Shown in pieces: positions 31,095 to 62,025 of a DNA stretch of 64,000 nt (the first letter of the stretch is position 1; each line of letters starts with the position of its first letter). The notes under the pieces were generated by a model that had not been told where the DNA came from, ran no database searches, and worked only from the letters and a program-made list of their open reading frames with translations. The stretch comes from Mycolicibacterium sp. MU0050. Its GTDB lineage: Bacteria; Actinomycetota; Actinomycetes; Mycobacteriales; Mycobacteriaceae. The stretch spans positions 1,426,001-1,490,000 of the forward strand of contig NZ_OY726395.1 of NCBI RefSeq assembly GCF_963378085.1. The letters run 5' to 3'. The position numbers and the translations under genes are program-made.

Positions 31095-31109
31095 GAGAAT
31101 AGTATTCTC
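31095..31109. promoter_or_regulatory. Palindrome A operator, site 1
   Basis: GAGAATAGTATTCTC, a perfect 7-bp inverted repeat around G, between the divergent ferredoxin and acyl-CoA synthetase genes. A further TATTCT at 31081 faces AGAATA, so the site may be extended. One of four copies of the same motif in promoter regions here. Confidence 0.8.
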
Positions 31110-31217
31110 ATACCGCGATAGCATCTTCTCGAGTCTGCCAGGTCAGACGCCTGCGGCCGCAGTGGGCCGCCGGGTCGGAAGGTGACGCTGACAAGTACGA
31201 GCCGGCGAGGAGGACCG

Positions 31218-32624
31218 ATGCCCGATCCGGTCGTTCTCGCCTTCGAGGAGCGTACCTATCGTCGTTCGGAGCTCGCCGCCCTGACCGACGGCCTGGCCGC
31301 CGAGCTGGCGCACCGGGGCGTGCGCGCGGGCCAGCGGGTGGCGCTGATGTCCTCGAACCGCCCCGAGTTCGTCGTCGCCCTGTTCGCGGTGTGGCAGCTG
31401 GGCGCCTCGGTGGTGCTCATCAGCCCGGCCTGGAAGAACGCCGAGGTGGCCGCGGCCCTGGCGCTCACCGAGCCACAGCACGCGCTCGGTGATCAACCCG
31501 TGCTGACCGAGCGGATGCCGATGCGGCATCTCGATGAGCCGATCGTCCCGGGCGCCTCGCCCTCGGTGTCCACCCCGGCCGCCGAGGCCGAGGCGGTGCT
31601 GGTGTTCAGCTCCGGCACCACCGGCCTGCCAAAGGCCGTGCGCCACACCCACGGATCGTTTCGGACCGCGGTCACGCATTGGAAGACCGTGCTGGACCTC
31701 GGCGAGCGGGATCGGCTGCAGATCGTCACCCCGCCGTCGCACATCCTGGGGCTGCTCAACATCGTCACGGTGCTCGAGGCCGGCGGGTGGCTGCGGCTGC
31801 ACCGGCGCTTCGACGTCGAGACGATGCTGCGCCACATCGAGTCCGATCGCATCACCGTCGAGATGGCGGTGGCGCCAATAGCGTTGGCCATTGCCTCGCA
31901 TCCCGGGTTGGAATCGTTCGACCTGTCCTCGCTGCGCTACATCATGTGGTGCGCCACGCCGGTGACGGTGAGCGTGGCCGAGGCCGTGACCCGTCGCACC
32001 GGTGTCGGCTGGACCACCGCCTACGGTGCCAGCGAACTGCCGGTGCTGACCTGCAACGACCTGCGTGACGGCCCCCTGGACACCGTCGGCCGCGCCGCAC
32101 CCGGCGTGCGGTTGCGGGTGGTCTCGCTCGACGACGGCACCCCGCTGTCCGTCGGCGAGACCGGTGAGATTCAGGCGCAATCGGATTCGCTGATGACGGG
32201 CTACCTGCCGGCCGAGGAGACCCGGAGCGCCATGCACGACGGCTGGTACCGCACCGGCGACGTCGGCTTCCTCGACGAGCGCGGCTATCTGCGGATCACC
32301 GACCGCGCCAAGGAGATGATCAAGGTGCGGGGCTTCCAGGTCGCCCCCGCCGAGGTCGAAGCGGTGTTGCACGGCCACCCGGCGGTCAGTGATTGCGCGG
32401 TGTTCGGCGTCCCGCATCCGGCGGACGGCGAGGCCGTGGTCGCCGCCGTCGCCAGCACCCAGGGTGTGTCGGCCGACGAGTTGATCTCGTTGGTCGGCGA
32501 CACGCTGGCGTCCTACAAACGTCCCACCGAAATTGTTTTCGTGCCAGAGATTCCGCGCCTGCCCTCCGGCAAGGTGCTGCGTCGCGTGCTGAAGGAGCGC
32601 CATGGATGTACGTCTGACAACTGA
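31218..32624 (+). CDS. Acyl-CoA synthetase (AMP-forming)
   Basis: 468 residues of the ANL superfamily; activates a carboxylic acid to its CoA thioester with ATP. The P-loop is VFSSGTTGLPKAVRHTH, the A5 motif YGASELP, the A7 region WYRTGDVGFLDERG and the A10 lysine LPSGKVLRR. ATG start preceded by GAGGAGGA. Shorter than most FadD proteins because the N-terminal part is compact. First gene of the operon to 35380 and its 3' end overlaps the next start by 23 bases. Confidence 0.9.
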   Translation: MPDPVVLAFEERTYRRSELAALTDGLAAELAHRGVRAGQRVALMSSNRPEFVVALFAVWQLGASVVLISPAWKNAEVAAALALTEPQHALGDQPVLTERMPMRHLDEPIVPGASPSVSTPAAEAEAVLVFSSGTTGLPKAVRHTHGSFRTAVTHWKTVLDLGERDRLQIVTPPSHILGLLNIVTVLEAGGWLRLHRRFDVETMLRHIESDRITVEMAVAPIALAIASHPGLESFDLSSLRYIMWCATPVTVSVAEAVTRRTGVGWTTAYGASELPVLTCNDLRDGPLDTVGRAAPGVRLRVVSLDDGTPLSVGETGEIQAQSDSLMTGYLPAEETRSAMHDGWYRTGDVGFLDERGYLRITDRAKEMIKVRGFQVAPAEVEAVLHGHPAVSDCAVFGVPHPADGEAVVAAVASTQGVSADELISLVGDTLASYKRPTEIVFVPEIPRLPSGKVLRRVLKERHGCTSDN

Positions 32625-33507
32625 GCAACAGCAGCTGCGCGATGCGGCCGCCAAGCTCGCCGACGACCTCGGACCGGGATCGGTCGCCGAGCTGGACGAC
32701 GACGGGCGAATCACCCGCCTGGACAAGCAGATCGCCGTCACCGGGTGGCGTTCGCTGCGGTCCGACGAGGCGTCGGGAGTCGAGGTGGCGCTCGTCGCCG
32801 AGGAGTTCGGCCGCGGTCTGGTGGACGCGCCGTTCCTGGGCCCGGTGCTGGCCGACGACCTGGCCCGGCACATCGACGGGACCGACGCCACGGCCGCGAC
32901 GGTGGCGGTCGACGGCCAGGCCGTCGACGCCCGCGGCAGTGCGCGGGCGCTGGTCCTGGACGGTACGGCGGTGCAGGGCGCGGAGATCACCGGTGCCGCG
33001 TCCACCGCGGACCTGACCCGCACCCGCGCCACGCTGGGGGCGGCCGAGTCGTTGGGCTCGGTGACCGACGAGGACGCGCAGCGCTGGTACGCGCTTGCCC
33101 TCGTCGGCACCGCGGCCGACCTGGTCGGCGTGTCCCGGGGCGCCCTCAACCTGGCCGTCGAGTACGCGAAGATCCGTGAGCAGTACGGCAATACGATCGG
33201 CTCCTACCAGGCCGTCGCGCACCTGCTGGCCGAGAGCCTGACGCTCACCGAGGGCTCGGTGAGCGTGCTGCGGCATGCCGCGTGGGCCGTCGACGAACTG
33301 CCCGCCGCCGAGGCGGTGCGCGCGGCCAAGGTGGCCAAGCTGTACTGCGCGCGGACCGCCCGCACCGTCTGCGAGACCTCGATCCAGGTGCACGGCGGGA
33401 TCGGCAACACCTGGGAGTGCCTGGCGCATGTGTACCTGCGCCGCGCGCTCATCTCAACCGAATTGTGGCCCGTCAAGTGGGAGGACATCGACCTTGGACT
33501 TTCGTGA
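32602..33507 (+). CDS. Acyl-CoA dehydrogenase, short partner subunit
   Basis: 301 residues. The middle domain is reduced, but the C-terminal helical bundle is kept (AVEYAKIREQYGNTIGSYQAVAHLLAE; SIQVHGGIGNTWE). Such short, degenerate subunits in mycobacteria pair with a full-length partner in alpha2beta2 enzymes such as ChsE1-ChsE2 of cholesterol breakdown. The next gene overlaps by 14 bases and is the natural partner. Confidence 0.9.
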   Translation: MDVRLTTEQQQLRDAAAKLADDLGPGSVAELDDDGRITRLDKQIAVTGWRSLRSDEASGVEVALVAEEFGRGLVDAPFLGPVLADDLARHIDGTDATAATVAVDGQAVDARGSARALVLDGTAVQGAEITGAASTADLTRTRATLGAAESLGSVTDEDAQRWYALALVGTAADLVGVSRGALNLAVEYAKIREQYGNTIGSYQAVAHLLAESLTLTEGSVSVLRHAAWAVDELPAAEAVRAAKVAKLYCARTARTVCETSIQVHGGIGNTWECLAHVYLRRALISTELWPVKWEDIDLGLS

Positions 33508-34585
33508 TTCCACCGAGGAAGCGGCGTTCCGGCAGCGCCTTCGTGACTGGTTGGCCGTGCACGCCAAGGAGTTTCCGACCTCCGGCGACGAGTACTGGGC
33601 CAAGGCCGGTGAGTGGCACCGCGCCCTGTACGAGGGCGGGTTCTTCGGTCTGTCGTGGCCCAAGGAATACGGCGGCCAGGAGTTGCCACCGGTCTACGAC
33701 GTCATCCTCGACGAGGAACTGGCGCGCGCGGGCGCCCCGGCACGGCCCAGTCTGGGCTACCTGGTGGTCGGGCTCGGGCACCACGGCAGCAAGGAGATCC
33801 AGCAGCGCTTCCTGCCCGGCATGATCAACGGCACCGAGCGCTGGTGCCAGGGCTTCTCCGAACCCGGTGCCGGCTCCGACCTGGCGTCGCTGACCACCAC
33901 CGCCGTGCTCGACGAGGCGGGCGAGAATTACATCATCAACGGGCACAAGATCTGGACCAGCTACTCCGACGTCGCCGACTGGTGTCTGGTGCTGGCCCGG
34001 ACCGACCCGGAAGCCAAACGGCACCGCGGGATTTCGGCGTTCATCTGCTCCATGCATCAGCCGGGCATCGAGCAGCGCCCGCTGCAGATGATCAGCGGCG
34101 TCACCAAGGAGTTCGGACAGGTCAGCTTCGACAACGTGAAGGTGCCCGTCGAGAACATGGTGGGCGCACCGGGCGAGGGCTGGCCACTGGCGATGACGGT
34201 CGTCAGCCACGAGCGCGAACCCTCCACCCTGGGTTTCGCCGCCCGCTACGACAAGCTGGTGCGGTCGCTGGTCAAGCGCACCGAAAGCCCGTCGGAGGAA
34301 CTGGTGTGGGCGGCGGTCGAGGTGGAGATGCTCACCCACCACGTCCGGCGCCGGCTCTCCGAACAACTCGACGGTCTGTCGCACGGGCCGAACGGGTCCA
34401 TCGACAAGCTGCTGATGACCTGGGTCGAGCAGACCGTCGGGCATGCGGCGCTCGACGTCGCCGGCACCGGGGACGAGGAGATGCTGGGCGCCTACATGTA
34501 CAGCCGCGCGCAGAGCGTCATGGGCGGTACGTCGCAGATCCAGAAGAACATCATTGCCTCACGAATCCTGGGCCTGGGCGTCTGA
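33494..34585 (+). CDS. Acyl-CoA dehydrogenase, full-length partner subunit
   Basis: 363 residues with N-terminal, middle (CQGFSEPGAGSDLASLTT, NGHKIWTS) and C-terminal (GGTSQIQKNIIASRILGL) domains intact for FAD and substrate binding. TTG start chosen because it gives LDFRDSTEEAAFR, the normal N-terminus. Forms a heteromer with the preceding short subunit; such pairs dehydrogenate bulky or ring-bearing acyl-CoAs. Confidence 0.9.
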   Translation: MDFRDSTEEAAFRQRLRDWLAVHAKEFPTSGDEYWAKAGEWHRALYEGGFFGLSWPKEYGGQELPPVYDVILDEELARAGAPARPSLGYLVVGLGHHGSKEIQQRFLPGMINGTERWCQGFSEPGAGSDLASLTTTAVLDEAGENYIINGHKIWTSYSDVADWCLVLARTDPEAKRHRGISAFICSMHQPGIEQRPLQMISGVTKEFGQVSFDNVKVPVENMVGAPGEGWPLAMTVVSHEREPSTLGFAARYDKLVRSLVKRTESPSEELVWAAVEVEMLTHHVRRRLSEQLDGLSHGPNGSIDKLLMTWVEQTVGHAALDVAGTGDEEMLGAYMYSRAQSVMGGTSQIQKNIIASRILGLGV

Positions 34586-34615
34586 CGGCGCACGCCCGAC
34601 AAGAAGGGACTTCAA

Positions 34616-35380
34616 ATGTACGGAATGCCAGACGAAATCGACGTCCAGGCGGACGGCCCGCTGCGCATCATCACGCTGAACCGCCCGGAGGCGCTCAACG
34701 CCGTCAACGACGCGCTGCACGTCGGGCTCGCCTCCCTGTGGGAGGCGCTCAACGAGGATGCCGACGCGCGGGTGGCGGTGCTGACCGGAGCGGGGCGCGC
34801 GTTTTCCGCCGGCGGCGACTTCAACTACCTCGACGAGCTGCGGCGCGATGAGGCGTTGCGCACCAAGACCATCAAGCACGGCCGCGACCTGGTGATCGGA
34901 ATGATCCGCTGCCGCATTCCCGTCATCGCCGCCGTCAACGGTCCGGCGGTGGGGCTGGGCTGCAGCCTGGCCGGGATGTCGGACATCGTCTACATGGCCG
35001 AGACCGCGCACTTCGCCGACCCACACGTGCAGATCGGCCTGGTCGCCGCAGACGGCGGTCCGTTGGTCTGGCCGAGCCAGATCAGTTTCCTGCAGGCCAA
35101 GGAATTCGCGCTGACCGCAACGAAGATCACGGCGCAGCGCGCGCTGGAGTTGGGGATGGCCAACCACGTGGTCGCCGATCCGGTGGCCGAGGCCATCGCC
35201 TGCGCGAAGAAGATCCTGGAGCTGCCGCAGCAGGCCGTCGAGGCCACCAAGCGCCTGATGAACATCCAGCTCGAGCGGTCGGTGATGGCGTCGCTGGACT
35301 ACGCGAACCTCTCGGAGTACGTGTCGTTCGGGACCGCGGACTTCAACCGGATCGTCGACGGACTCATCGCCAAGAAGTAG
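34616..35380 (+). CDS. Enoyl-CoA hydratase/isomerase family protein
   Basis: Crotonase-fold protein of 254 residues. Oxyanion-hole segments are AGRAFSAGGDFNYLD and NGPAVGLGCSLAGMSD. The usual catalytic glutamates are not both obvious (PHVQIGLVAADGG), so hydration, isomerisation or ring opening are all possible. Preceded by AAGAAGGGA. Last gene of the synthetase-ACAD-hydratase operon, which ends at a very strong hairpin. Confidence 0.88.
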   Translation: MYGMPDEIDVQADGPLRIITLNRPEALNAVNDALHVGLASLWEALNEDADARVAVLTGAGRAFSAGGDFNYLDELRRDEALRTKTIKHGRDLVIGMIRCRIPVIAAVNGPAVGLGCSLAGMSDIVYMAETAHFADPHVQIGLVAADGGPLVWPSQISFLQAKEFALTATKITAQRALELGMANHVVADPVAEAIACAKKILELPQQAVEATKRLMNIQLERSVMASLDYANLSEYVSFGTADFNRIVDGLIAKK

Positions 35381-35435: not shown

Positions 35436-36200
35436 CTACTTGGGCGGGAAGCGTAGCGCGCCGTCCAAACGGATCACCTCACCATTGAGGTAGTCGTTCT
35501 CGACGATCGACGCCGCGAGCTGTCCGTACTCGACCGAGCGGCCCATCCGCTTGGGGAACGGCACCTGAGGACCCCAGTAGGCCTCCAGCTGATCGGCGGC
35601 CTGACCGTAGGCGGGGGTGTTGATGGTCCCCGGCGCGATGGTGACCACCCGGATGCCCAACGGCGAAAGATCGCGTGCGGCAACCAATGTCATCCCGATG
35701 ACGCCGCCCTTGGCGGCCGAGTAGGGGACCTGGCCGATCTGGCCCTCGTACCCGGCCACCGACGCGGTGTTGATGATGACGCCGCGCTGTCCCTCCTCGA
35801 GCGGTTCCTGCTTGGCGATCGCGGCGGCAGACAGCCGCATCACGTTGAACACCGCCGTCAGGTAGAACTCGATGGTGGTCTTGAATCCGTCGAGGCTCAG
35901 CGGGCTGCCGTCCTTGCCGACCAGGCGACCGCCGGTCGCCGGCCCGCCGTGGGTATCGACCGAAATGCGCAGCGGCCCCAGGGCTTCCGCCTCCGCCAGC
36001 GCGGCCAGCACGCTGTCCTCGCTGGTCGCGTCGGTGCGAACGTAGCGGACGCCCAGTTCGGACTCCAGTGCCTTGCCCTTGTCGTCGGCCATGTCGGCGA
36101 CCACCACTTTGGCGCCGGCGCCGTGCAACCGACGGACGGTGGCTTCGCCGAGGCCGCCGGCACCACCTACGACAATCGCCGAGCTTCCCGCGATGTGCAT
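35436..36200 (-). CDS. Short-chain dehydrogenase (3-hydroxyacyl-CoA dehydrogenase type II-like)
   Basis: 254 residues. Cofactor motif VVGGAGGLGEA, active-site tyrosine and lysine in VPYSAAKGGVIGM, and NTASVAGYEGQIGQ as in HSD17B10-like 3-hydroxyacyl-CoA dehydrogenases. It would carry out the third step of beta-oxidation on the hydratase product. Divergent from meaB across palindrome A. Confidence 0.88.
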   Translation of the reverse strand: MHIAGSSAIVVGGAGGLGEATVRRLHGAGAKVVVADMADDKGKALESELGVRYVRTDATSEDSVLAALAEAEALGPLRISVDTHGGPATGGRLVGKDGSPLSLDGFKTTIEFYLTAVFNVMRLSAAAIAKQEPLEEGQRGVIINTASVAGYEGQIGQVPYSAAKGGVIGMTLVAARDLSPLGIRVVTIAPGTINTPAYGQAADQLEAYWGPQVPFPKRMGRSVEYGQLAASIVENDYLNGEVIRLDGALRFPPK

Positions 36201-36238: not shown

Positions 36239-36253
36239 GAGAATACTATTCTC
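36239..36253. promoter_or_regulatory. Palindrome A operator, site 2
   Basis: GAGAATACTATTCTC, perfect inverted repeat between the divergent SDR and meaB genes. Confidence 0.8.
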
Positions 36254-36295: not shown

Positions 36296-37201
36296 ATGGT
36301 TGTGACCCGAGAGCTTCCCGACACCGCCGAGTTGATCAGGTCGGCCCGAGCGGGCTCCATCCGCGCCGCCGGCCGGCTACTGAGCCTGGTCGAGGGCCCG
36401 CGTCGAGCCGAGACGCTGGCCGTGCTCGACGAGTTCGAGTCGGCGCCCGCGCGCGTCGTCGGCATCACCGGCCCACCCGGCGCCGGCAAGTCGACGACGG
36501 TCGGGGCGCTGGTCGGGGCGTACCGGGAGCGCGGGGTGCGCGTCGCGGTGTTGGCCGTCGACCCGTCCTCGCCCTACAGCGGCGGGGCGCTACTGGGTGA
36601 CCGAATCCGGATGGTGGCGCACATCAACGACCCGGAGGTACTGATCAGGTCGATCGCCAGCCGCGGGCATCTGGGCGGGCTGGCGGCGGTGGTCCCGGCG
36701 GCGATCCGCCTGCTGGCCGCGCTCGACTACGGCCTGATCTTCTTGGAGAGCGTCGGGGTGGGCCAGTCGGAGGTCGAGATCTCGGCGGTGGCCGACCCCA
36801 CGGTGGTCATCCTGAACCCGGGGGCCGGTGACGCCATCCAGGCCGCGAAGGCGGGGCTGCTGGAAGTGGCCGATTTGGTGGTGGTCAACAAGGCCGACCG
36901 GGACGGCGCCGACCAGACGGTGCGGGATCTGCACGCCGAGACGGGCGCGCCGATCTTGAAACTCGTTGCTGCGCAGGGGGAGGGCCTGCCCGAGCTGGTG
37001 GAGGCCATCGAGGCGCATCATCGCGCGGACACGGCGGAGCGCAGAACAGCCCGGGCGCGTGCGCAGATCCTCTCACTCGCGCAGACGCGCCTGCAGCGCC
37101 ATCCCGACCTGGCCCGGCTGGCCGCGGCGGTTGCGGACGGCAGCACCGACGCGTATTCGGCGGCCGACGCGCTGGCCGGTCTGCACGAGCGGCGGGGCTG
37201 A
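36296..37201 (+). CDS. meaB: MeaB-type G-protein chaperone of B12 mutase
   Basis: 301 residues. SIMIBI-class GTPase (MeaB/ArgK/MMAA) that loads adenosylcobalamin into acyl-CoA mutases and protects them from inactivation. Walker A GPPGAGKST at 59-67, VLAVDPSSPYSGGALLGDRIRM, the base-recognition motif NKAD, and a helical tail. Its presence next to a palindrome A site ties the mutase to regulon A although the mutase operon itself lacks the palindrome. A cell's general methylmalonyl-CoA mutase normally has its own MeaB, so this is likely a dedicated copy. Confidence 0.92.
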   Translation: MVVTRELPDTAELIRSARAGSIRAAGRLLSLVEGPRRAETLAVLDEFESAPARVVGITGPPGAGKSTTVGALVGAYRERGVRVAVLAVDPSSPYSGGALLGDRIRMVAHINDPEVLIRSIASRGHLGGLAAVVPAAIRLLAALDYGLIFLESVGVGQSEVEISAVADPTVVILNPGAGDAIQAAKAGLLEVADLVVVNKADRDGADQTVRDLHAETGAPILKLVAAQGEGLPELVEAIEAHHRADTAERRTARARAQILSLAQTRLQRHPDLARLAAAVADGSTDAYSAADALAGLHERRG

Positions 37202-37342: not shown

Positions 37343-37996
37343 TTAGCTGGCGGCGAAGCCGTGGGCGCAGAACGCCCAGACTTCCTCGGCCGAGATGGGG
37401 TTGATGGTCTCGTCGTCGGCGGGGGCGCTGGACTGCGCGGTGAACATCACCGTCTGCATCGTCATGGCCGCCATCCGCCGCGCGTTGACGCCGCTGCGCA
37501 ACCGGCCCGCCGCCTCGGCGGTTTCCATCAGCTCGGTGAACAACGCGATCAGCGGCGCGTGGGCCACCCGCACCTCGTTGGGGTGCGAGACCAGCAACTG
37601 CGGCGCGAAGTCGGTGAACAGCGGGCGCTTGGCACTGGGGTCCGGGCGAGACAGCTCGAAGAGCAGCTCGATTGCCACTCTGAGCTGGTCCAATGGGTCG
37701 GCCTGACCGGAGGTGGCGGCGCGGATCTGGTCGGCCGCGCGGCTCAGCGCATCTTCGAAGAGCGCCAGCAGTAGTTCGTGCTTACCGTCGAATTGCAGAT
37801 AGAAGCTGCGCAGTGACTGCCGCGAGCGGTCCACGACCTCCTGGACCGTGAAGTCGGTGCTGCCCTTTTCGGTGATGATCGCCTGGGCGGCGTCGAGGAA
37901 GCGCTGCACGCGCTGGGCGGCCCGCAACTTGGCGGTCTTGATGGACCGCTCGACGGCACGCTGCTTCCACGCGGGCTCTTCGCTGGGACTGCTCAT
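37343..37996 (-). CDS. TetR-family regulator, candidate for palindrome A
   Basis: 217 residues. A basic helix (RSIKTAKLRAAQRVQRFLDAAQ) leads into the helix-turn-helix FTVQEVVDRSRQSLRSFYLQF, then a ligand-binding domain. The start is uncertain: an ATG 39 bases upstream is also in frame. It is divergent from an acyl-CoA dehydrogenase operon with one palindrome A in the gap, the classic autoregulated TetR layout. Acyl-CoA or a pathway intermediate would be the expected ligand. The 141-base gap to meaB holds nothing I can name. Confidence 0.87.
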   Translation of the reverse strand: MSSPSEEPAWKQRAVERSIKTAKLRAAQRVQRFLDAAQAIITEKGSTDFTVQEVVDRSRQSLRSFYLQFDGKHELLLALFEDALSRAADQIRAATSGQADPLDQLRVAIELLFELSRPDPSAKRPLFTDFAPQLLVSHPNEVRVAHAPLIALFTELMETAEAAGRLRSGVNARRMAAMTMQTVMFTAQSSAPADDETINPISAEEVWAFCAHGFAAS

Positions 37997-38108: not shown

Positions 38109-38123
38109 GAGAATGCTATTCTC
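38109..38123. promoter_or_regulatory. Palindrome A operator, site 3
   Basis: GAGAATGCTATTCTC, inverted repeat GAGAAT/ATTCTC between the TetR gene and the divergent acyl-CoA dehydrogenase pair. This is the site that ties the regulator to the motif. Confidence 0.8.
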
Positions 38124-38176: not shown

Positions 38177-39193
38177 ATGCTGCTGGAGCTGAATTCCGAC
38201 CAGCGGTTATGGCGCGACACCGTGCGCGACGCGTTGGCCAAGGAGTGCCCGGCGTCCCTGGTGCGCGCCATTGCCGAGGGGGACGGCGACCGGGATCCCT
38301 CCGCACCGCTGTGGAAATCGTATGTGGCCAACGGCTGGACCGAACTCACCGACGTCGAAGAGACGGTCGAGTTGGGCCTGCTGGTCGAGGAACTCGGTCG
38401 GGCCACCGACCCGACGCCATACCTGGCCACCCTGACCCAGTTCAACCCGCTGGCGCCGGAGGCCGTCGACCCCAAGTTGTCCGGGGCGGCCGTCTACGAC
38501 GGGGTGACCGCGGCGCGCGTCGCCGACGGCTGGGAGTTGGACGGCACCGCGCGCCACGTGCTCGACGGCGATCGCGCCGAGCGCATTGCGGTGTCGACGC
38601 CGGCTGGGGTGTTCGTCGTCGGCGCCGACAAGTTCTCGGCCCGTCGTGTCCCCGTTTTCGACCCGGTGTTGCATGTGGCAGAGGTGACCTTCGACCGGGT
38701 GCGGGTGGCGCCCGGCGACCGCGTGGTGGCCGCCCACACCGACCACGCGGCCAGGGCCAAGGACGTGGCGCTCACGGGTCTGGCGCTGACCATGGTCGGC
38801 GCCTGCCAGCGGGTGCTGGACATGGTCCTCGAGCACGTGGGTTCGCGACAGCAGTTCGGCGTCCTCATCGGTTCCTTTCAGGCGGTGCAACACAAGGCCG
38901 CCGATATGCACGTCGCGATCGAACGGGCCCGCGCCCTGTCCTACTTCGCGGCGTTGACCATCGCCGCCGACGACCCGCGCCGGCGGCTGGCCGCGGCCAT
39001 GGCCAAGGCTTCGGCCGGTGAATGCCAGTCCCTGGTGTTCAAGCACGGCATCCAGTTGTTCGGCGCCATGGGCTTCACCTGGGAGAACGACGTGCAGTTC
39101 GCCCTCAAGCGGGCCAAGGCCGGTGAGCTGTTGCTCGGCGGTGCGGCCGAGCACCGCGCCGTGGTCGCCGACATGACCCTCGCGGAGGCCTGA
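38177..39193 (+). CDS. Acyl-CoA dehydrogenase, short partner subunit
   Basis: 338 residues. Weakly conserved N-terminal half, then the ACAD C-terminal bundle (GSRQQFGVLIGSFQAVQHKAADMH; HGIQLFGAMGFTWENDVQ). ATG start follows GAGGAAGG. Ends 3 bases before the full-length partner. Second heteromeric acyl-CoA dehydrogenase pair of the window. Confidence 0.9.
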   Translation: MLLELNSDQRLWRDTVRDALAKECPASLVRAIAEGDGDRDPSAPLWKSYVANGWTELTDVEETVELGLLVEELGRATDPTPYLATLTQFNPLAPEAVDPKLSGAAVYDGVTAARVADGWELDGTARHVLDGDRAERIAVSTPAGVFVVGADKFSARRVPVFDPVLHVAEVTFDRVRVAPGDRVVAAHTDHAARAKDVALTGLALTMVGACQRVLDMVLEHVGSRQQFGVLIGSFQAVQHKAADMHVAIERARALSYFAALTIAADDPRRRLAAAMAKASAGECQSLVFKHGIQLFGAMGFTWENDVQFALKRAKAGELLLGGAAEHRAVVADMTLAEA

Positions 39194-39196
39194 GCC

Positions 39197-44600: not shown

Positions 44601-44631
44601 TCCTTGGTTGGCTGAGGCGCTCGGCCCGGTA

Positions 44632-44647: not shown

Positions 44648-44683
44648 CAGCCGTCGCGCTCTTGTTTCTGTGCCGGGCGTTGG

Positions 44684-44699: not shown

Positions 44700-44731
44700 C
44701 GCCCACCGCGCGACGAGAGGGAGTGCACAAC

Positions 44732-48784: not shown

Positions 48785-48794
48785 CCGCGCGGAC

Positions 48795-49520: not shown

Positions 49521-49558
49521 CGAGTCTCGGACAAGGGGGTTGTGTCACCCGTCGTGTG

Positions 49559-49574
49559 CTGTACAGTCGTATTG
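49559..49574. promoter_or_regulatory. Palindrome B operator, site 4
   Basis: CTGTACAGTCGTATTG, an imperfect copy with five of seven paired positions, between the nitroreductase and SDR genes. Confidence 0.6.
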
Positions 49575-49610
49575 CATTCGACGTGCGGTGTCGACCGAGA
49601 GGAATAATCA

Positions 49611-50384: not shown

Positions 50385-50405
50385 ACCGGAACGGCGGAAA
50401 CTGAC

Positions 50406-50840: not shown

Positions 50841-50871
50841 CCCCAGAACCCCGACGAAGTAAGGATTTTCG

Positions 50872-52211: not shown

Positions 52212-52220
52212 GCGCCGGCC

Positions 52221-53417: not shown

Positions 53418-53457
53418 CCTGCTCCTAAGCCTTTGCGCCAGTTCGTGACCTGGCATG

Positions 53458-53473
53458 CAGTACGATCGTACAG
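53458..53473. promoter_or_regulatory. Palindrome B operator, site 5
   Basis: CAGTACGATCGTACAG, with a perfect GTACGATCGTAC core, between the P450 and LLM genes. Confidence 0.72.
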
Positions 53474-53502
53474 CACGCGATCGTGGAGCTGAAGGAGCGG
53501 CG

Positions 53503-54357: not shown

Positions 54358-54366
54358 AAACCGCGG

Positions 54367-54993
54367 TCAGGACCGCCGTGCGGCCTGGGTCTTGGGTGCC
54401 GACGACGGTGTGTCGGCGACCGAGTCCAGGTACTTCTCGAACGCCGTGGTGACCTCGCGGTGCGCCGTCTTGACGCCGACACCCTCTTCGAGGCTCAGGA
54501 ATTTCGGTATGCCCGACATCAGCAGCTGCAACGCGGGCAGCGACAACTCGCCGAGTCGGGCGTCCTTGCCGTACTTCGCCACCAGCGCGTCCACCTGAAC
54601 CTTGCGCATCCGCTTGGTCACCTTGGCGATTTCGGCCTGGATGGACTTCCGATGATTGCCCAGCGCCATGAACTCGGTCATCAGCGCGCCGGTGGCCTCG
54701 CGCTGGTTGTAGCTCCACAGGGTGCGCAATGGGTCGTCGGGGTGCTCCCGCAGGATCTTCGTCAGGTACTCGAGGTTCTTCTCGGCGTAGCGACGGATCG
54801 CCGAGAGGAAGATGTCGTCGAGCGTGGGGAAGTAGTACTGCACCAGGCTGGGCGTGACCCCGGCCTCCGAGGCCAGGGTGCGGTAGCTGATGCTGGCGTA
54901 GCCCTTGGCGAGCAGCAGCCGCTCCACGCAGTCGAGCAGGGCGTCCCGCGTCTTGGACGTCTCGGCGCCGACGCGCCGCGGTGAAGCTGCCAT
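54367..54993 (-). CDS. TetR-family regulator, candidate for palindrome B
   Basis: 208 residues: helix-turn-helix ISYRTLASEAGVTPSLVQYYFPTLDDIFL at about 35-63, then a helical ligand domain. Divergent from an LLM monooxygenase gene with a palindrome B in the gap, the usual TetR autoregulatory layout. It is the only regulator gene inside the island. Confidence 0.88.
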   Translation of the reverse strand: MAASPRRVGAETSKTRDALLDCVERLLLAKGYASISYRTLASEAGVTPSLVQYYFPTLDDIFLSAIRRYAEKNLEYLTKILREHPDDPLRTLWSYNQREATGALMTEFMALGNHRKSIQAEIAKVTKRMRKVQVDALVAKYGKDARLGELSLPALQLLMSGIPKFLSLEEGVGVKTAHREVTTAFEKYLDSVADTPSSAPKTQAARRS

Positions 54994-55078
54994 AACTCCC
55001 TCGCTGGGTCGAAGAACGCCTACATCTTGTCACGCCGGTCCCGCCGCGCCTCAACCCTTGACCCGCCGCCGCGCGATG

Positions 55079-55094
55079 CTGTACGCATGTATAG
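55079..55094. promoter_or_regulatory. Palindrome B operator, site 6
   Basis: CTGTACGCATGTATAG, inverted repeat with two mismatches, between the TetR gene and the divergent LLM monooxygenase gene. Confidence 0.7.
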
Positions 55095-55143
55095 CACGGC
55101 CAGGGCGATGCGGAACTCGGCCGATACACACGGAGGATGCCCG

Positions 55144-56514
55144 GTGCCCAAACGAATGATCTTCACGCTGCTGGTGATGAATTCCGTCGGCCACAATTTT
55201 CACGGCGGGTGGCGGCATCCGGAGGCGCGCAACCGCGAGTTCAAGACCTTCGACATGTGGGTGGACCTCGCGAAGAAGGCCGAGCGAGCACGCTTCGATG
55301 CGTTCTTCTTCACCGATCTGCTCGGCGCGCAGGGCGAGCACAACGGCTCCCGCGACGTGGTGTTCGAACAGGCGATGAACGTGCCGATCGGTGACTGCAC
55401 AATGTTGCTTCCCGTGCTCGCGCGCGAAACCTCCGACATCGGCCTGATGTACACCAGTTCGGTGATCCAGCAGCACCCGTTCGCCTTCGCCCGACAGGTG
55501 TCCACGCTGGATCACCTCAGCAACGGCCGGGTGGGCTGGAACATCGTGACGTCGGCCAACGAGCGGGCGTTCGCCAACTTCGGCGTTCCCGGCGGCCTCA
55601 CGCATGACCAGCGCTACGAGTGGGCGCAGGAGTACGTCGACGTCACCTACAAGCTGTGGGAGGCGTCGTGGGATCTCGGCGCCGTCGTCGACGACCCGGC
55701 CCGCGGCGTCTACACCGATCCGACCAAGGTGCACGACATCAACCACATCGGTGAGCGCTACCGGGTCGAGGGCTACAACCTGATGGAACCCTCCCCGCAG
55801 CGCACCCCGCTGTTGGCGCAGGCCGGTGGATCCCCGGTCGGGTTGGACTTCGCCAGTCGACACGCCGAGGTGATGTTCCTGTCGGCCTTCACCCCGGAAG
55901 CCATTGCCGAGCAGGTGAAGACGGTCCGTGGGCTGGCGCGCTCACATGGCCGCCAGGACGAGGACATCCTGTTCCTGCAGGGTCTGATGTTTGTCGTCGG
56001 CTCTACCGACGAAGAGGCCAACCGGAAGTGGATGGAACTGGAGGAGTGGCGATCTCAGGAGGCGCAGGCCGCCTACTTCGCCAGTCTCAGCGGCATGGAC
56101 CTCGGGCAGTACGACGCGGACACTCCGCTGGCGGACATCGTCGAGACGATGCCGGGCATCCGTGGCGCCTTCCTGTCCTTGATCAACGCGTGGCCGCCGG
56201 GCAGCAAGCCGACCATCCGGGACTTCCTGAGCACGATGTCATTACCGCAGATGGTGGTCGGCTCGCCAGAGACCATCGCGACCCGGCTGCTGGAATTTCA
56301 GGCGGCCGGCTCGGACGGCGTGCAGGTGATGAACATGCTGATGCCGCAGAGTTACGACGAATTCTTCGAGCACGTCGTCCCGGTGTTGCAGGACAAGGGC
56401 CTGATCCAGACCGAGTATCGTCCGGGAACGTTGCGGCAGAAGATCTTCGATACCGATCGGCCGCATATTTCCGAGCGGCACCCGGCCCACCGCTACCGCG
56501 GCATGTTCTGTTGA
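55144..56514 (+). CDS. Flavin-dependent monooxygenase, NtaA/SnaA/DszA type
   Basis: 456 residues, the larger LLM subgroup that uses FMNH2 (nitrilotriacetate, dibenzothiophene sulfone and alkanesulfonate monooxygenases). MNSVGHNFHGGWRHPEA, RARFDAFFFTDLLGAQGEHNG, TSSVIQQHPFAFARQVSTLDHLSNGR, GWNIVTSANERAFANFG are typical. GTG start chosen for the GGAGGA 8 bases upstream; an ATG four codons on is possible. No reductase gene is near. It could open a C-C, C-N or C-S bond by insertion of oxygen. Confidence 0.9.
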   Translation: MPKRMIFTLLVMNSVGHNFHGGWRHPEARNREFKTFDMWVDLAKKAERARFDAFFFTDLLGAQGEHNGSRDVVFEQAMNVPIGDCTMLLPVLARETSDIGLMYTSSVIQQHPFAFARQVSTLDHLSNGRVGWNIVTSANERAFANFGVPGGLTHDQRYEWAQEYVDVTYKLWEASWDLGAVVDDPARGVYTDPTKVHDINHIGERYRVEGYNLMEPSPQRTPLLAQAGGSPVGLDFASRHAEVMFLSAFTPEAIAEQVKTVRGLARSHGRQDEDILFLQGLMFVVGSTDEEANRKWMELEEWRSQEAQAAYFASLSGMDLGQYDADTPLADIVETMPGIRGAFLSLINAWPPGSKPTIRDFLSTMSLPQMVVGSPETIATRLLEFQAAGSDGVQVMNMLMPQSYDEFFEHVVPVLQDKGLIQTEYRPGTLRQKIFDTDRPHISERHPAHRYRGMFC

Positions 56515-56601: not shown

Positions 56602-57405
56602 TTACAGCTGGGCCAGCCGGGGGACCGATCCGCGCGCCCGCAGCCCGGCCCCGGCCCTCCGAGTGAGTTCCCTTGAGCTGCCGAGCAACCCGTCGAGCAC
56701 CAGCGCGCGCTTCACGTGCACATGCAGGTCGTGCTCCTCGGTGAACCCGATTCCGCCGAGCACCTGCTGGCAGTGCTTGGCGGCGGTCAGCGCGGCCTTG
56801 CCTGCCGCGGCCTTGGCCAGTAGTGCGGTCAGGTCGGGGTTGTCGGTGCCGGGCAGCGTCAGCGTCGCCTCGGCGCCCTCGATGGCCACCAGGGTTTCGG
56901 CCAACCGGTGTCGGACCGCCTGGAAGGACGCGATGGGCTTGCCGAACTGCACCCGGTCCAGCGCATGCTGGCGGGCCAGGGCCAACATCGCCCGGGCGGA
57001 CCCGACCAGCCACCAGCCCACGGCGAGGCGCGCCTCGGCGAGCCGGATCGGGTAACCCTCTTCCTCGCGGCGCAGCGGCAGTCCGCCCAGGGCCGCAGCG
57101 TCGCCCTCGGCACCGCGCTCCCACACCACCCAGGTGTTGCCGGCGTAGGGCAGCGGCAGCTCCACGTCGGCGCCGACCTCGTTGCCGGTCGCGTGGAGCA
57201 CCACGTCCACCAGAACCGAAGCGTGCGAGCCGGTTTCGCCCAACAGGCGAAACACCAGGGGGACCGCGGACTCCGCGGCCTCGGACAGCATCTCGGCCCA
57301 GCCCATCTCGGTCAGGGCGGCATCGAGGGCGGGGCCGGACGCGGACAGCATGGTCTTGCGGAGGGAGGCCTCGAGCATGTCGAGCGACTCTTTGTCCACG
57401 ATCAC
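56602..57405 (-). CDS. Acyl-CoA dehydrogenase, short partner subunit
   Basis: 267 residues. The N-terminal half is degenerate; the C-terminal bundle is kept (ALDRVQFGKPIASFQAVRHRLAETL; AKHCQQVLGGIGFTEEHDLH). GTG start overlaps the stop of the full-length partner (GTGA). Third heteromeric pair in the window; last gene of the Rieske operon. Confidence 0.9.
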   Translation of the reverse strand: MIVDKESLDMLEASLRKTMLSASGPALDAALTEMGWAEMLSEAAESAVPLVFRLLGETGSHASVLVDVVLHATGNEVGADVELPLPYAGNTWVVWERGAEGDAAALGGLPLRREEEGYPIRLAEARLAVGWWLVGSARAMLALARQHALDRVQFGKPIASFQAVRHRLAETLVAIEGAEATLTLPGTDNPDLTALLAKAAAGKAALTAAKHCQQVLGGIGFTEEHDLHVHVKRALVLDGLLGSSRELTRRAGAGLRARGSVPRLAQL

Positions 57406-58526
57406 TCCTTCCCGAGGTCCAGCAGCCGACGCGCGATGATGTTGCGCTGCACCTCGCCGGTGCCGCCGTAGATGGTGGCGGCGCGCGAGTATAGGTACTC
57501 GGTGCGCCAGTCGGTGTCATCGAGCTCGATGACACCCGGCAACAAATTGTGCACCGTGTCGTAGAGCTGTTGTTCCGCGCCGGCCAACAACACCTTGTCG
57601 ATCGAGGTGTCCGGGCCCAGCTTCTGGCCCTCGGCGAGGCGATGCTGGGTGGCCCGCGACCGGCAGCGCAACGTGTGCAAGGCCAGATAGGCGTCGCCCA
57701 TCTCCGCGTCGATGACCTGCCCCTGCCGCTTGACCTCGTCGACAAGTGCGTCGAAGCGCGAGTACAGGTAGGCGATGCGCTGCCAGAAGCAGGTCGAGCG
57801 TTCGTAGGGCAGCAGGTCCATCGCCAGCTGCCAGCCGTCGCCGGGTTCACCCAGCATCCGGCTGTCGTCGACCACCACGTCGTCGAAGTAGACCTCGCAG
57901 AACTCGTCGACGTCGTGCATGGTCCGCAGCGGCCGCACGGTGACACCCGGGGTGTCCAGATCGACGAAGAAGGCGGTGATGGCCTGATGACTCGGGGTGT
58001 CCGGACCGCCGGTGCGGGTGAGCAGGACACACCGCGTGGCGTACTGGGCGAAGCTGGTCCACACCTTCTGGCCGTTGATGACCCAGCTGTCTCCGCGCCG
58101 CTCGGCCCGGGTGCTCAGCGATGCCAGATCGCTGCCGGCGCCTGGTTCCGAGAAGCCCTGACACCAGGATTCCTGGCCGGACAACAACTTCGGGACCATC
58201 TCGGCGGCCAGCTCCGGGCGGGCGTAGTCGATCATCGTCGGGGTCAGCACCTCGAGCATCGAGTACGGCCCGGGATGGTCGAGGCGACGCCCGACGATCT
58301 CCTCGCCGACGATCGCCCGCAGGATGTCCGGACCGCCGAGCCCGCCGGCGGATTCCGGCCAGCCGTACCGCATCCAGCCCGCGTCGTACAGGGCCTTGAG
58401 CACGCGCAGGTGCTGCGCCTGATGCGCGTCCAGGCTGTCGTCCCCGGGCGGGGCGCTCAGGTCGTTCTCGTCCAGCCAGGCGCGCAGCGCGGTCCGGAAC
58501 GCGGCGGGTTCGTGCAGTTCGGTCAT
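57402..58526 (-). CDS. Acyl-CoA dehydrogenase, full-length partner subunit
   Basis: 374 residues with CQGFSEPGAGSDLASLST, VINGQKVWTSFAQYA, and GGTGEVQRNIIARRLLDLG. ATG start gives MTELHEPAAFR; the longer frame upstream overlaps the NTF2 gene and is rejected. The ATG overlaps that gene's stop by 4 bases. Confidence 0.92.
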   Translation of the reverse strand: MTELHEPAAFRTALRAWLDENDLSAPPGDDSLDAHQAQHLRVLKALYDAGWMRYGWPESAGGLGGPDILRAIVGEEIVGRRLDHPGPYSMLEVLTPTMIDYARPELAAEMVPKLLSGQESWCQGFSEPGAGSDLASLSTRAERRGDSWVINGQKVWTSFAQYATRCVLLTRTGGPDTPSHQAITAFFVDLDTPGVTVRPLRTMHDVDEFCEVYFDDVVVDDSRMLGEPGDGWQLAMDLLPYERSTCFWQRIAYLYSRFDALVDEVKRQGQVIDAEMGDAYLALHTLRCRSRATQHRLAEGQKLGPDTSIDKVLLAGAEQQLYDTVHNLLPGVIELDDTDWRTEYLYSRAATIYGGTGEVQRNIIARRLLDLGKE

Positions 58527-58969
58527 CCGGCTTCGGGCCTGCCGATCGCGTGCGGCCGGCCGTGGTCGTGGTCGCCGCTGCGCCGGATGAAGGTCATGGC
58601 GCGGGTCTTCAGTCGCCAGCCGTCCGGGGTGCGCTCGTAGGTGTCGCGGTAGTAGCCGATGCGCATGTCGTGCTTGGAGTGCTCGATGAAACACAGCGGC
58701 TGGGTGCCGGTGGCGGTGTCGGCGCCCTCGACCAGGTCGACCAGCGCGGTGCCCGTCATGAACAGTCCCTTGGGCGCGGCGTCGACGAGGACGGGGAAGC
58801 GGTTCAGTGTGTAGGTCTCGCCGAACGCGCTGTAGGTGCCGTCCGGGGTGAAAACACTGGTGAGACCCTCGATGTCACCCTGGGTGATGGTGACCGCGTA
58901 CTTGGCGAGCACCTGTTGGATCTCGATCAGATCCTCGGTGCGGGTCGGCTTGTCAGTTGGCTGAGTCAT
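58523..58969 (-). CDS. SnoaL/NTF2-fold protein
   Basis: 148 residues: EDLIEIQQVLAKYAVTITQGDIEGLTSVFTPDGTYSAFG, then RDTYERTPDGWRLKTRAM. NTF2-like fold, as in ring-hydroxylating dioxygenase beta subunits and ketosteroid isomerases. Sitting in a Rieske operon it might be the beta subunit, but the alpha subunit here belongs to a type that may need none; an isomerase is equally possible. Overlaps the amidohydrolase end by 17 bases. Confidence 0.82.
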   Translation of the reverse strand: MTQPTDKPTRTEDLIEIQQVLAKYAVTITQGDIEGLTSVFTPDGTYSAFGETYTLNRFPVLVDAAPKGLFMTGTALVDLVEGADTATGTQPLCFIEHSKHDMRIGYYRDTYERTPDGWRLKTRAMTFIRRSGDHDHGRPHAIGRPEAG

Positions 58970-60182
58970 TGCGGAAGACCTTACCTCCCTTCATTACAAA
59001 GTTCACATTCCGTGTAACGGTGATGTCGGCCAGGGGATCGCCGGGCACGGCGATGATGTCCGCCAGCAGTCCCTCGGCCAACCGGCCCCGGTCGGTGACG
59101 TTGATCAGATCGGCGGCCACCACGGTGGCGGCACGCAGCACCGCGGCCGGCGGCAGGCCCCATTCCACCAACGTGACCAGCTCGTCGGCGTTCTTGCCGT
59201 GCGGAATCGCGGGGGCGTCGGTGCCGACGGCGATCTTGACGCCGGCCTCGTAGGCCGCCTTGATGGAGGTGCGCGCCTTCGGGAACATCTCGGCGGCCTT
59301 GTCCTGCAGCACCTTCGGCGCCTTGGACACATCCATCGCCTCGGCCAGCCGCCGGGTGCTCACCAAAAACCGATCGTTGTCCACCAGCATCTGGATGGCC
59401 TCGTCGTCCATCAGGAAGCCGTGCTCGATGCAGTCGATCCCGCAGGCCACGGCGTGCTTGACGGCCTCGGCGCCGTGGGTGTGCGCGGCCACGCGCAGCC
59501 CGCGCCGGTGCGCCTCGTCGACGATGACCCGCAGCTCCTCGTCCGAATAGTGTTGCGCGCCGGCCTCTCCGGTCAGCGACATCACCCCACCGGAGCAGCA
59601 CACCTTGATGAGCTGCGCGCCGTGCTTGATCTGGTAGCGCACCGCCTTGCGGATCTCGTCGACCCCGTTGGCGATGCCCTCCTCGATGGTGAGCTCGAGC
59701 ACGCCGGGCATGAAGGCAGCAAACATCGTCGGATCCAGGTGCCCGCCGGTCGGCGTGATCGCGTGGCCGGCGGGCACCACCCGGGGGCCGTCGATCAGGC
59801 CGGCGTCGATCGCCCGGCCGAGCGCGACGTCCAGGAGGTATCCGCCGGTCTTGACGAACAACCCGAGGTTGCGCACCGTGGTGAAGCCCGCGCGCAGCGT
59901 GCGGCGGGCGTTGCCGACGGCGCGCAACACCCGGGTCGGCGGGTCGTCCTGCACCTGGGACAGGCCGGGGTTTTCGCCCCGGCCGCCCATCAGCAGGTTG
60001 ACCTCCATGTCCATCAGGCCCGGCAGCAGGATCGAGTCGCCGAGATCGATGACCTGATCCTCGGGGCCCGTCGGCCCGTCGCCGATCCCGACGATCCGAT
60101 CGCCGTCGACACGGACGACGCCGGGGCGAATGATCTCCCCGGCATCGACGTCGAGCAGTCCGGCCGCTTTGAGGGTGAGCAC
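58953..60182 (-). CDS. Amidohydrolase-superfamily protein with altered metal site
   Basis: About 409 residues of the imidazolonepropionase/Xaa-Pro dipeptidase-like branch: beta-sandwich N-terminus (DGDRIVGIGDG), PTGGHLDPTMFAAF, KVCCSGGVMSLTGE, the HTHG and CIEHGFLMDD metal histidines, and VGTDAPAIPHG. The first metal motif, normally HxH after PGLxDM, is MEVNL here, so two ligands are missing. The rest of the site is kept. GTG start; the codons before it are not conserved-looking. It may use one metal or act as a lyase or isomerase. Confidence 0.82.
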   Translation of the reverse strand: MLTLKAAGLLDVDAGEIIRPGVVRVDGDRIVGIGDGPTGPEDQVIDLGDSILLPGLMDMEVNLLMGGRGENPGLSQVQDDPPTRVLRAVGNARRTLRAGFTTVRNLGLFVKTGGYLLDVALGRAIDAGLIDGPRVVPAGHAITPTGGHLDPTMFAAFMPGVLELTIEEGIANGVDEIRKAVRYQIKHGAQLIKVCCSGGVMSLTGEAGAQHYSDEELRVIVDEAHRRGLRVAAHTHGAEAVKHAVACGIDCIEHGFLMDDEAIQMLVDNDRFLVSTRRLAEAMDVSKAPKVLQDKAAEMFPKARTSIKAAYEAGVKIAVGTDAPAIPHGKNADELVTLVEWGLPPAAVLRAATVVAADLINVTDRGRLAEGLLADIIAVPGDPLADITVTRNVNFVMKGGKVFRNDSAN

Positions 60183-60184
60183 CC

Positions 60185-60538
60185 TTAGACCACCGGCTCC
60201 CGGATGAGCTCGACCCACGCCGCACCGCTGTCGAGCACGCGCGGCTGCTTCCAGACCTCCACCGGGAAGCTCACCATCACCACCGACTGCATCAGGTGCA
60301 TCAGCCGCTTGGCCTGATCCGGCATGTCATGCAGCGGGAAGCGGGCGTCGAGGTAGACCATGACCTCCTCGAGGCGCTCCATCCCGGCGTCGTAGAGCTC
60401 CTGCATTTCCTCCATGCTGGATTCCAGCCGCTTGGCGTAGCGCTCCGGCTCGGTGGCCAGGATCCAGTCGCTGAACCGCTCCAGATCGGCGAATTCAGCC
60501 GGCAGCAAGGACTCGCCGGCTCCGTTGTTCTCAGACAT
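60185..60538 (-). CDS. Small conserved protein of the Rieske operon
   Basis: 117 residues, acidic and helical, with no known motif that I recognise: EFADLERFSDWILATEPERYAKR and EEMQELYDAGMERLEEVMVYLD. It overlaps the Rieske gene by 8 bases and lies 2 bases before the amidohydrolase start, so it is likely a partner or assembly subunit of the oxygenase. No membrane or signal segment. Confidence 0.75.
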   Translation of the reverse strand: MSENNGAGESLLPAEFADLERFSDWILATEPERYAKRLESSMEEMQELYDAGMERLEEVMVYLDARFPLHDMPDQAKRLMHLMQSVVMVSFPVEVWKQPRVLDSGAAWVELIREPVV

Positions 60539-61859
60539 GTGCGCTGTCCTTCACATTCCCGTTGGTCTTGGCTGCCTCGGCGGCGGCCTGTTCTGCCTTG
60601 TACTTGTCGACGTACTTGTGCGCGGTGTGGTGCAGGTGCCGCAGCAGGATTTCCTGGTCGCAGAGCGGGAATTCGGTGACCGCCCGCGTCCCGATCTGGG
60701 TCTGCGTGGCCTCCAGGGTGTTGGCGTCCTGCAGGGCGTACTCCTTGAACGTCACCGCGGCCAGTTCCTGGCTCAACCGCTGGCGGGTGTTCTTCGGCGG
60801 GACGAAGTACAGGTTCGCCTCGAAGATGTGGGTGTCCACACCGGTCGGCCAGTAGTTGTAGGTGAGGTACCAGCCCGGCACCCACAACAGCAGCGTGAAG
60901 TTCGGGAAGAACTCGAAAGAGTCCTGGCCCCAGGTCTTTTGCCGGGCCGGGTTGACCGCCGGCGGCAGCTCGTCGGGCAGGATGCCCTTGATGTCCGGGC
61001 GGTCCCACGGACCGAACAGCCCGCTGTGCAGCACCCGCTCGATAGGCTTGACCATGTTGAGGTCCTTGGGCGGGCTCATGCCACCCCAGGACGAGATCAT
61101 CGAATGCTGGTCCTTGATGTCGTAGTGCAGCGCCTCGAACCCGACCTTGGCCAGCTTCTCGGCCTCTTCCTTGGTCGCCTGCTTCATGTGCAGGATCGGC
61201 GCGTGGTAGAACTCGACGAAGGCGTCGATGAACAGCTTCCAGTTCGCCTTGATCTCGGAGCGGTAGCTGTAGACCTCGGTCATCTCGTGGAACGGGTAGC
61301 CCTTCAACCCCTGGCCGAACTCACCCAGGTAGTCCTCGAGCGGCTCGGCGTCGTCGTCGAAGTTGACGAAGATGAAGCCTTCCCAGACCTCGCACCGCAC
61401 CGACTTCAGCGGGTAGTCCGCCTTGTCGACGTCGAAGAACTCGTCCTCCTGCTGGATGAACGTCAGTTCGCCGTTCAACGCATAGCGCCAGGCGTGGTAC
61501 TTGCAGGTGAACTGCCGGCAGCTGCCGGAGGTCTCCTCGCCGGGGTAGTCGTTCCACACCAGCTTGTTGCCGCGGTGCCGGCACAGGTTGTAGAACGCCC
61601 GGATCTGGCCGTCCTTGTCCTTGTTGATGATGATCGACGTGCCGGGGCCCACCGACGGCATCTCGCGGGTGAAGTAGCTACCGGTCTTCGGCAGTCGCTC
61701 GACGCGACCGACGTGCAGCCATAGCTTGCGGAAGATGGCCTGCTGCTCGAGCTTCCAGTGTTCCGGATCGATGGAGTCGGTGTAGTCGACCGGGGCGGTG
61801 CCAAGCTCCGGCCAGTTCTCGGTCCAGCTGCCTACAGCCGGTTTGGGGAAGAACGCCAT
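60531..61859 (-). CDS. Rieske non-haem iron oxygenase, alpha subunit
   Basis: 442 residues. Rieske [2Fe-2S] ligands C93, H95, C119 and H122 (NLCRHRG ... FTCKYHAW). The mononuclear iron site is in NWKLFIDAFVEFYHAPILH, with H219 and H224 and the electron-bridging acidic residue E216 just before. Activates O2 to hydroxylate or cleave a substrate; needs a ferredoxin and a reductase, not encoded next to it. The start overlaps the stop of a 42-residue leader ORF (TGATG). Palindrome A lies 152 bases upstream. Confidence 0.94.
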   Translation of the reverse strand: MAFFPKPAVGSWTENWPELGTAPVDYTDSIDPEHWKLEQQAIFRKLWLHVGRVERLPKTGSYFTREMPSVGPGTSIIINKDKDGQIRAFYNLCRHRGNKLVWNDYPGEETSGSCRQFTCKYHAWRYALNGELTFIQQEDEFFDVDKADYPLKSVRCEVWEGFIFVNFDDDAEPLEDYLGEFGQGLKGYPFHEMTEVYSYRSEIKANWKLFIDAFVEFYHAPILHMKQATKEEAEKLAKVGFEALHYDIKDQHSMISSWGGMSPPKDLNMVKPIERVLHSGLFGPWDRPDIKGILPDELPPAVNPARQKTWGQDSFEFFPNFTLLLWVPGWYLTYNYWPTGVDTHIFEANLYFVPPKNTRQRLSQELAAVTFKEYALQDANTLEATQTQIGTRAVTEFPLCDQEILLRHLHHTAHKYVDKYKAEQAAAEAAKTNGNVKDSAHV

Positions 61860-61987
61860 CAGTGGATCTCCTGTTCTCTACGACGCTCGGTGCCGTGTTG
61901 GGTGCTGGGCGGGTGGCCCGCGGGCTGGGCGGTGGGTGGCCCGGAATCAGGCGGCGACGCCGCGACGTGCTGGCTGGGCGGTGTCAT
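61859..61987 (-). CDS. Candidate 42-residue leader ORF coupled to the Rieske gene
   Basis: Found by reading the 5' leader of the Rieske gene. ATG preceded at 8 bases by GAGGAGA, 42 codons, and a TGA that shares a base with the Rieske ATG. The peptide is Pro-, Ser- and His-rich (MTPPSQHVAASPPDSG at the start) with a basic end (ERRREQEIH), and resembles no family I know. It may be a real small protein or a leader that controls Rieske translation. The Rieske ribosome-binding site (AGGAG) lies inside it. Confidence 0.5.
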   Translation of the reverse strand: MTPPSQHVAASPPDSGPPTAQPAGHPPSTQHGTERRREQEIH

Positions 61988-62010
61988 CTGACCGGTCTCC
62001 TCTCGCTCAC

Positions 62011-62025
62011 GAGAATCATATTCTC
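62011..62025. promoter_or_regulatory. Palindrome A operator, site 4
   Basis: GAGAATCATATTCTC, inverted repeat GAGAAT/ATTCTC, 24 bases before the leader ORF of the Rieske operon. It is 24 kb from the nearest other copy. The rest of the 436-base gap (61860-62295) holds the leader ORF and the promoter listed next. Confidence 0.8.

Follow-up and report, generated by a model that had tools for sequence, protein, structure and literature searches.

A candidate TetR-family regulator and palindromic operator for a conserved catabolic island in mycobacteria and their relatives

In a 64,000-bp window of Mycolicibacterium sp. MU0050 (bases 1426001-1490000 of contig 1; genome 5.22 Mb) and the DNA beside it, we found that copies of the palindrome GAGAAT-N3-ATTCTC cluster between divergent genes, share a preferred spacing, are conserved in relatives and are inherited together with a gene for a TetR-family protein, here called TetR-A (37343 to 37996, minus strand; the start is possibly further upstream). 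From sequence comparisons, we consider it probable (roughly 0.8) that TetR-A is the regulator reading this operator, and we propose that it is a repressor. Positions of up to five digits refer to the window and seven-digit positions to the contig.

The earlier note had described four copies of the 15-mer GAGAATNNTATTCTC, at 31095, 36239, 38109 and 62011, and a scan of the window recovered all four with no mismatch. At up to three mismatches, with both strands counted, the window held 14 matches, compared to a mean of 2.3 and a maximum of 8 after shuffling. The part conserved in relatives is GAGAAT-N3-ATTCTC, which is the true form of the palindrome; the fixed T in the earlier consensus falls outside the signal, and the copies at 38109 and 62011 mismatch there on the other strand. 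The genome-wide scan suggested as a check, with GAGAATNNTATTCTC at up to one mismatch, gave seven places, all within 1457095-1565355, and none for the reversed control. Perfect GAGAAT-N3-ATTCTC sites numbered five genome-wide, all within one 108-kb stretch, compared to 0.027 per genome expected from base composition (P about 1e-10). Allowing one mismatch gave 13 places, nine in the 108-kb stretch and four elsewhere, and allowing two gave 60 places, compared to 5 for the control; 15 of these 60, including the nine strong ones, were located between 1452507 and 1565355, the one at 1459923 being intragenic. Among sites with up to one mismatch in a 178-kb region, nine had a centre of three bases, one of two and none of one, four or five. 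At 1553115, near the site at 1552996, both arms are intact around a centre of two bases, GAGAATGGATTCTC.

The nine strong sites make up eight intergenic regions, each separating divergent predicted genes, and five of these regions contain a perfect site. Four perfect sites are in the window: site 1 (31095 to 31109) between the ferredoxin gene and the FadD operon, 72 and 116 bp from the predicted starts; site 2 (36239 to 36253) between the SDR and MeaB genes, 45 and 50 bp from the predicted starts; site 3 (38109 to 38123) between tetR-A and an ACAD pair; and site 4 (62011 to 62025) between the Rieske operon and the DitZ-like operon. Gene starts are approximate, because the genes were called with our own codon-usage script. 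Outside the window are the fifth perfect site, at 1565341, and the one-mismatch sites at 1508875 and 1508962 (in the same region), 1529011 and 1552996. The placement described earlier, between divergent genes or in front of an operon, was thus confirmed, with all four copies in divergent intergenic regions, and the extent of four sites over 31 kb proved too small, the system covering eight intergenic regions over 108 kb. Many matches inside genes had been named as evidence against such a regulon; none of the 219 sites (up to one mismatch) in 80 loci of relatives was inside a predicted gene, a site being scored as intragenic only when 60 bp or more separated it from either end of the gene. The four one-mismatch sites outside the island were also inspected as regulon members. 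Of these, one falls in a predicted gene, another at converging 3' ends and a third between two tandem genes; the fourth lacks any called gene within 600 bp. All four were set aside as probable chance matches.

That the TetR gene at 37343 encodes the regulator had also been suggested earlier, and TetR-A emerged as the best candidate. The best-scoring 80 of at least 549 loci were taken, and these are therefore the closer relatives; they came from Mycobacterium, Mycolicibacterium, Nocardia, one Rhodococcus and one MAG labelled Acidobacteria. The palindrome was present within 200 bp upstream of TetR-A in all 80 (73 perfect, 7 with one mismatch), beginning 101 bp before the TetR-A match in 48 of them, and in the upstream alignments its arms reached 1.96 bits, compared to 0.26 and 0.85 in the flanks. 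Sites were also kept at other genes in the relatives' loci. All 16 loci with an SDR ortholog have one there, 52 of the 53 with a DitZ-like ortholog have one no more than 400 bp 5' of it, and the FadD gene has one in 8/8 and MeaB in 8/17. A site directly at the Rieske gene was found in 4 of 66, a low figure that is partly explained by another gene preceding the Rieske gene in relatives. The contig labelled Acidobacteria (L016), which carries a TetR 86% identical to TetR-A and a perfect site, is possibly a misbinned mycobacterial contig.

Across 201 genomes of the family, TetR-A (E <=1e-60) was found in 46, and 45 of these had a perfect site (224 sites in total; the exception is G095), compared to 11 of the 155 genomes without TetR-A, with one site each (Fisher P 4e-33, not corrected for phylogeny). 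Because these genomes share ancestry and the island moves as a unit, this co-occurrence is strong but circumstantial evidence. It could also be that another regulator of the island reads the palindrome and that TetR-A is merely one of its targets, the most plausible such regulator being TetR-B (contig 1494823). TetR-B co-occurs nearly as well: it was found (E <=1e-50) in 38 of the 201 genomes, every one of which also holds TetR-A and a perfect site, and 18 of the 163 genomes without it had a perfect site. TetR-C (contig 1563888) was present in 33 genomes, 32 of these with TetR-A. Co-occurrence alone therefore cannot single out TetR-A; what singles it out is the site in its own promoter, together with seven TetR-A genomes that have no TetR-B match at E <=1e-50 and nevertheless keep perfect sites (G030 has six, G118 four). 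Furthermore, the palindrome is absent upstream of TetR-B and TetR-C in the studied genome, no site was found in the single genome that holds TetR-C and lacks TetR-A (G105), and the TetR at 54367 is confined to 7 genomes. Upstream of TetR-B (L008:5540-5823) we instead noted by eye a different inverted repeat, AACCTACT-N12-AGTAGGTT, possibly a second operator of the island. Control of the palindrome by TetR-B or another island regulator is, on this evidence, unlikely. A second transposase-like gene (DDE_3) of the island is located directly behind TetR-B (L008:6967-8067).

More improbable still is a scheme in which TetR-A acts as an activator, or in which several paralogous TetR proteins with overlapping targets read the palindrome. 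The TetR family does include activators such as FasR, and some genomes have two or three TetR-A paralogs, with 3 matches and 14 perfect sites in G171, but the studied genome gave one TetR-A match only (E <=1e-60), and the conserved site in tetR-A promoters would, as judged by eye, overlap the -35 region ahead of a conserved TACAAT, which suits repression. For TetR-A itself, NCBIfam gave only matches below cut-off, and no plasmid homologs were found at 1e-5. Its predicted model had a mean pLDDT of 79.4, and the closest of the folds listed were Rv0078, RolR and EthR2, with FadR-type and KstR chains lower; these modelled fold neighbours do not identify a ligand.

A Pfam scan of 80 proteins of the region supported the earlier view that the sites belong to a CoA-dependent catabolic regulon. 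Around site 1 are a [2Fe-2S] ferredoxin gene (30712 to 31029, minus strand; PF00111) and, on the plus strand (31182 to 35380), genes for an acyl-CoA synthetase, an ACAD pair (a short ACAD at 32602-33507 and a full-length one at 33494-34585) and an enoyl-CoA hydratase. Site 2 separates an SDR gene (35436 to 36200, minus strand) from that of a MeaB-type GTPase (36296 to 37201, plus strand), the second full MeaB of the genome, which scored 237.9 bits compared to a TIGR00750 cut-off of 240.75. Behind site 3 is an ACAD pair on the plus strand (38177 to 40372; genes at 38177-39193 and 39197-40372), and directly 3' of this pair is an integrase-core transposase gene (PF13936, PF00665; 40462-41718), whose position probably breaks up that transcription unit. 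P450, SDR, luciferase-like, nitroreductase and SnoaL-like genes occupy 43419-56514, between sites 3 and 4, and no palindrome was found there at up to three mismatches. The Rieske operon (56602 to 61859, minus strand) encodes a Rieske oxygenase alpha subunit (60531-61859) with only distant named relatives, an Amidohydro_1 protein (58953-60182), a SnoaL-like protein (58523-58969), an ACAD pair (57402-58526 and 56602-57405) and a 117-aa protein with no Pfam match. On the other side of site 4, the gene at 62296 to 63594 (plus strand), for a PF04909 protein nearest DitZ, is the first of an operon that extends past the window and also contains genes for ACADs, a CoA-transferase and a thiolase. The genes behind sites beyond the window encode PF04909 proteins, a Rieske ferredoxin, ACADs, SDRs, hydratases, CoA-transferases and ligases. 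An Mce operon, with aldehyde dehydrogenase and CoA-transferase genes ahead of the Mce genes, is found only behind two two-mismatch sites (1512912 and 1513074), and its membership in the regulon is therefore weaker.

A possible further member is a mutase operon on the plus strand beside site 1. It encodes the large subunit of a B12-dependent acyl-CoA mutase, the second in the genome (26580 to 28157), a small B12-binding mutase subunit (28158 to 28592; TIGR00640, above cut-off), and an F420-type LLM oxidoreductase with a class III CoA-transferase (28592 to 30606). The canonical mutase/MeaB set is found at 2657660-2662553, and the second operon would supply a partner for the MeaB of the regulon. 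The mutase was found in 35 of the 201 genomes, all 35 with TetR-A. As in 2-hydroxyisobutyryl-CoA and methylmalonyl-CoA mutases, the B12 subunit is separate and a MeaB is encoded within the island. The nearest structure of the large subunit is 4r3u (2-hydroxyisobutyryl-CoA mutase; 509 bits). We take an Ile at the RQ-I-AGFG position to mark the large subunit of 2-hydroxyisobutyryl-CoA mutase, and the alignment placed a Tyr there. At the two aligned positions the protein has Tyr and Arg as in methylmalonyl-CoA mutase, whereas 4r3u has Ile and Gln; given the match at these two residues, we would guess at a dicarboxylyl-CoA substrate.

Whether TetR-A also controls the mutase operon is uncertain. 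A block with TATTGGCATTCTC at 26500-26570, GRTATTGGCATTCTCWTTTT-TGCAAGTA-GTATCCA, is kept upstream of the mutase and far better conserved than its flanks in all 30 fetched relatives (of 35 matches). It includes a weak two-mismatch site (26507 to 26521), and the 13-mer TATTGGCATTCTC, which includes one perfect palindrome half-site, has exact copies in the genome only in the mutase promoter and beside the perfect site at 1565341; copies with one mismatch are at 1529013 and at the unrelated positions 4881295 and 5117791. By eye, the block fits a -35 TTGGCA, a spacing of 17 bp and TANNNT, so that it resembles a -35/-10 promoter whose spacer carries an ATTCTC half-site. A sigma-54 promoter was also considered and dropped, as the GG-GC spacing did not fit. 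The block may thus be a weak TetR-A operator or a separate promoter element.

Five island proteins, nominally 'amidohydrolases', have the PF04909 fold. The protein encoded at 62296 (predicted model with a mean pLDDT of 65.5) has DitZ of Rhodococcus rhodochrous as its nearest structure, followed by PtmU3. It compares best with DitZ and with the amidohydrolase-related dinuclear oxygenases PtmU3, AibH2 and SfbO, with just 41% identity to DitZ, on which our literature search found no paper. For AibH2, six metal ligands (D-x-H, H, E, D-x2-H) are described (PMC7782822). This ligand set is complete in four of the five PF04909 proteins and, in the alignment of the 62296 protein, in each of the 11 sequences, and the 62296 protein is, by this comparison, likely a dinuclear oxygenase. 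The fifth protein (1507712-1508827) departs from the set at three positions. It belongs to an operon (1506065-1508827) with two adjacent PF04909 genes, one with complete and one with altered ligands, beside a Rieske ferredoxin, a gene order that resembles AibH1H2-AibG; a small Rieske protein (C-x-H...C-x2-H) near PF04909 genes was found for this operon only. The plasmid neighbourhoods of four of the 25 listed matches to the 62296 protein (Sphingopyxis, Massilia, Rhodococcus rhodochrous and Mycobacterium branderi) contained SDR, CoA-transferase, P450 and ACAD genes in varying mixes, with no pathway named.

Paired ACADs, P450s, a Rieske oxygenase, the Mce operon and the five 'amidohydrolases' together suggest that a polycyclic isoprenoid acid, diterpenoid- or steroid-like, is broken down by O2- and CoA-dependent steps, an assignment of substrate class that we hold tentatively and put somewhat below even. 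One island ACAD is nearest Tcur3483 and 4x28, which we take to be steroid-catabolism proteins, and a FadD3-family ligase passed its cut-off (754 compared to 657 bits); NCBIfam gave nothing at 1e-50 for three island P450s. The same operator and regulator could serve for simpler alicyclic, branched or aliphatic dicarboxylic acids, a reading that we put clearly short of even odds. Some ACAD, SDR and ligase matches are to pimeloyl-CoA and cyclohexanecarboxylate enzymes, below NCBIfam cut-offs, and the mutase seems, from its aligned residues, suited to a small dicarboxylyl-CoA. The PF04909 oxygenase AibH2 is described as acting on a small amino acid (PMC7782822). However, DitZ, PtmU3, Tcur3483, 4x28, the FadD3 family and the Mce operon indicate large ring substrates, and small dicarboxylates could be late products of a polycyclic substrate.

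One close comparison is KstR, the TetR of mycobacterial cholesterol catabolism, conserved in Mycobacterium, Rhodococcus and Nocardia, which likewise combines a palindrome in its own and divergent promoters with a large catabolic island of ACADs, ligases and Mce import (PMC1995591). Its operator, TnnAACnnGTTnnA, has a two-base centre and other arms than GAGAAT-N3-ATTCTC; in the 178-kb region the KstR core matched once, at 1467677, and at none of the eight intergenic regions, and KstR chains were absent from the top PDB sequences and folds listed for TetR-A. KstR2, likewise a TetR, controls a small regulon from operators between divergent genes (PMC3068626). Its operator, AnCAAGnnCTTGnT, also differs, with no exact and five one-mismatch matches in the 178-kb region. 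Both operators were rejected as an explanation of the sites, being absent at these promoters. By gene classes the island can be likened to the dit clusters of Pseudomonas and Paraburkholderia for abietane diterpenoids, which comprise a Rieske oxygenase, P450s and CoA-linked genes, and the same sources list Mycobacterium strains as resin-acid degraders (PMC6891630, PMC10710418). The earlier statement that no described regulon matches still stands: the literature searched did not contain the 15-mer in six spellings, the KstR and KstR2 consensus sequences differ, and no paper was recognised as describing this regulon.

As for an autoregulated TetR catabolic regulon, a TetR-family protein and a conserved palindrome in its own promoter were both found. 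A TetR-A dimer would bind GAGAAT-N3-ATTCTC and repress tetR-A itself as well as the divergent promoters in the eight intergenic regions over 108 kb, and a pathway intermediate, either an acid or a CoA thioester, would free it from the DNA; by analogy with KstR, such repression relieved by a pathway intermediate is likely. Under this scheme, products of the controlled genes would take up a diterpenoid- or steroid-like polycyclic isoprenoid acid, activate it and oxidise it in the form of CoA thioesters, the ring chemistry falling to O2-dependent oxygenases. More speculatively, and well short of even odds, this may be a third KstR-like system of the Mycobacteriales, in which one TetR and operator would control the breakdown of polycyclic isoprenoids by several amidohydrolase-fold dinuclear oxygenases, P450s and a Rieske oxygenase, and in which a two-subunit B12 mutase specific to the pathway would, with a MeaB of its own, deal with branched dicarboxylyl-CoA remnants. 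For this catabolic island of mycobacteria and their relatives, which is large, conserved and so far uncharacterised, the analysis yields a candidate regulator together with an operator and a defined set of genes, and, as an inducing compound should lift the repressor, the substrate is directly testable. If true, the proposal would bring together in a single pathway an orphan B12 mutase and several dinuclear oxygenases about which little is known.
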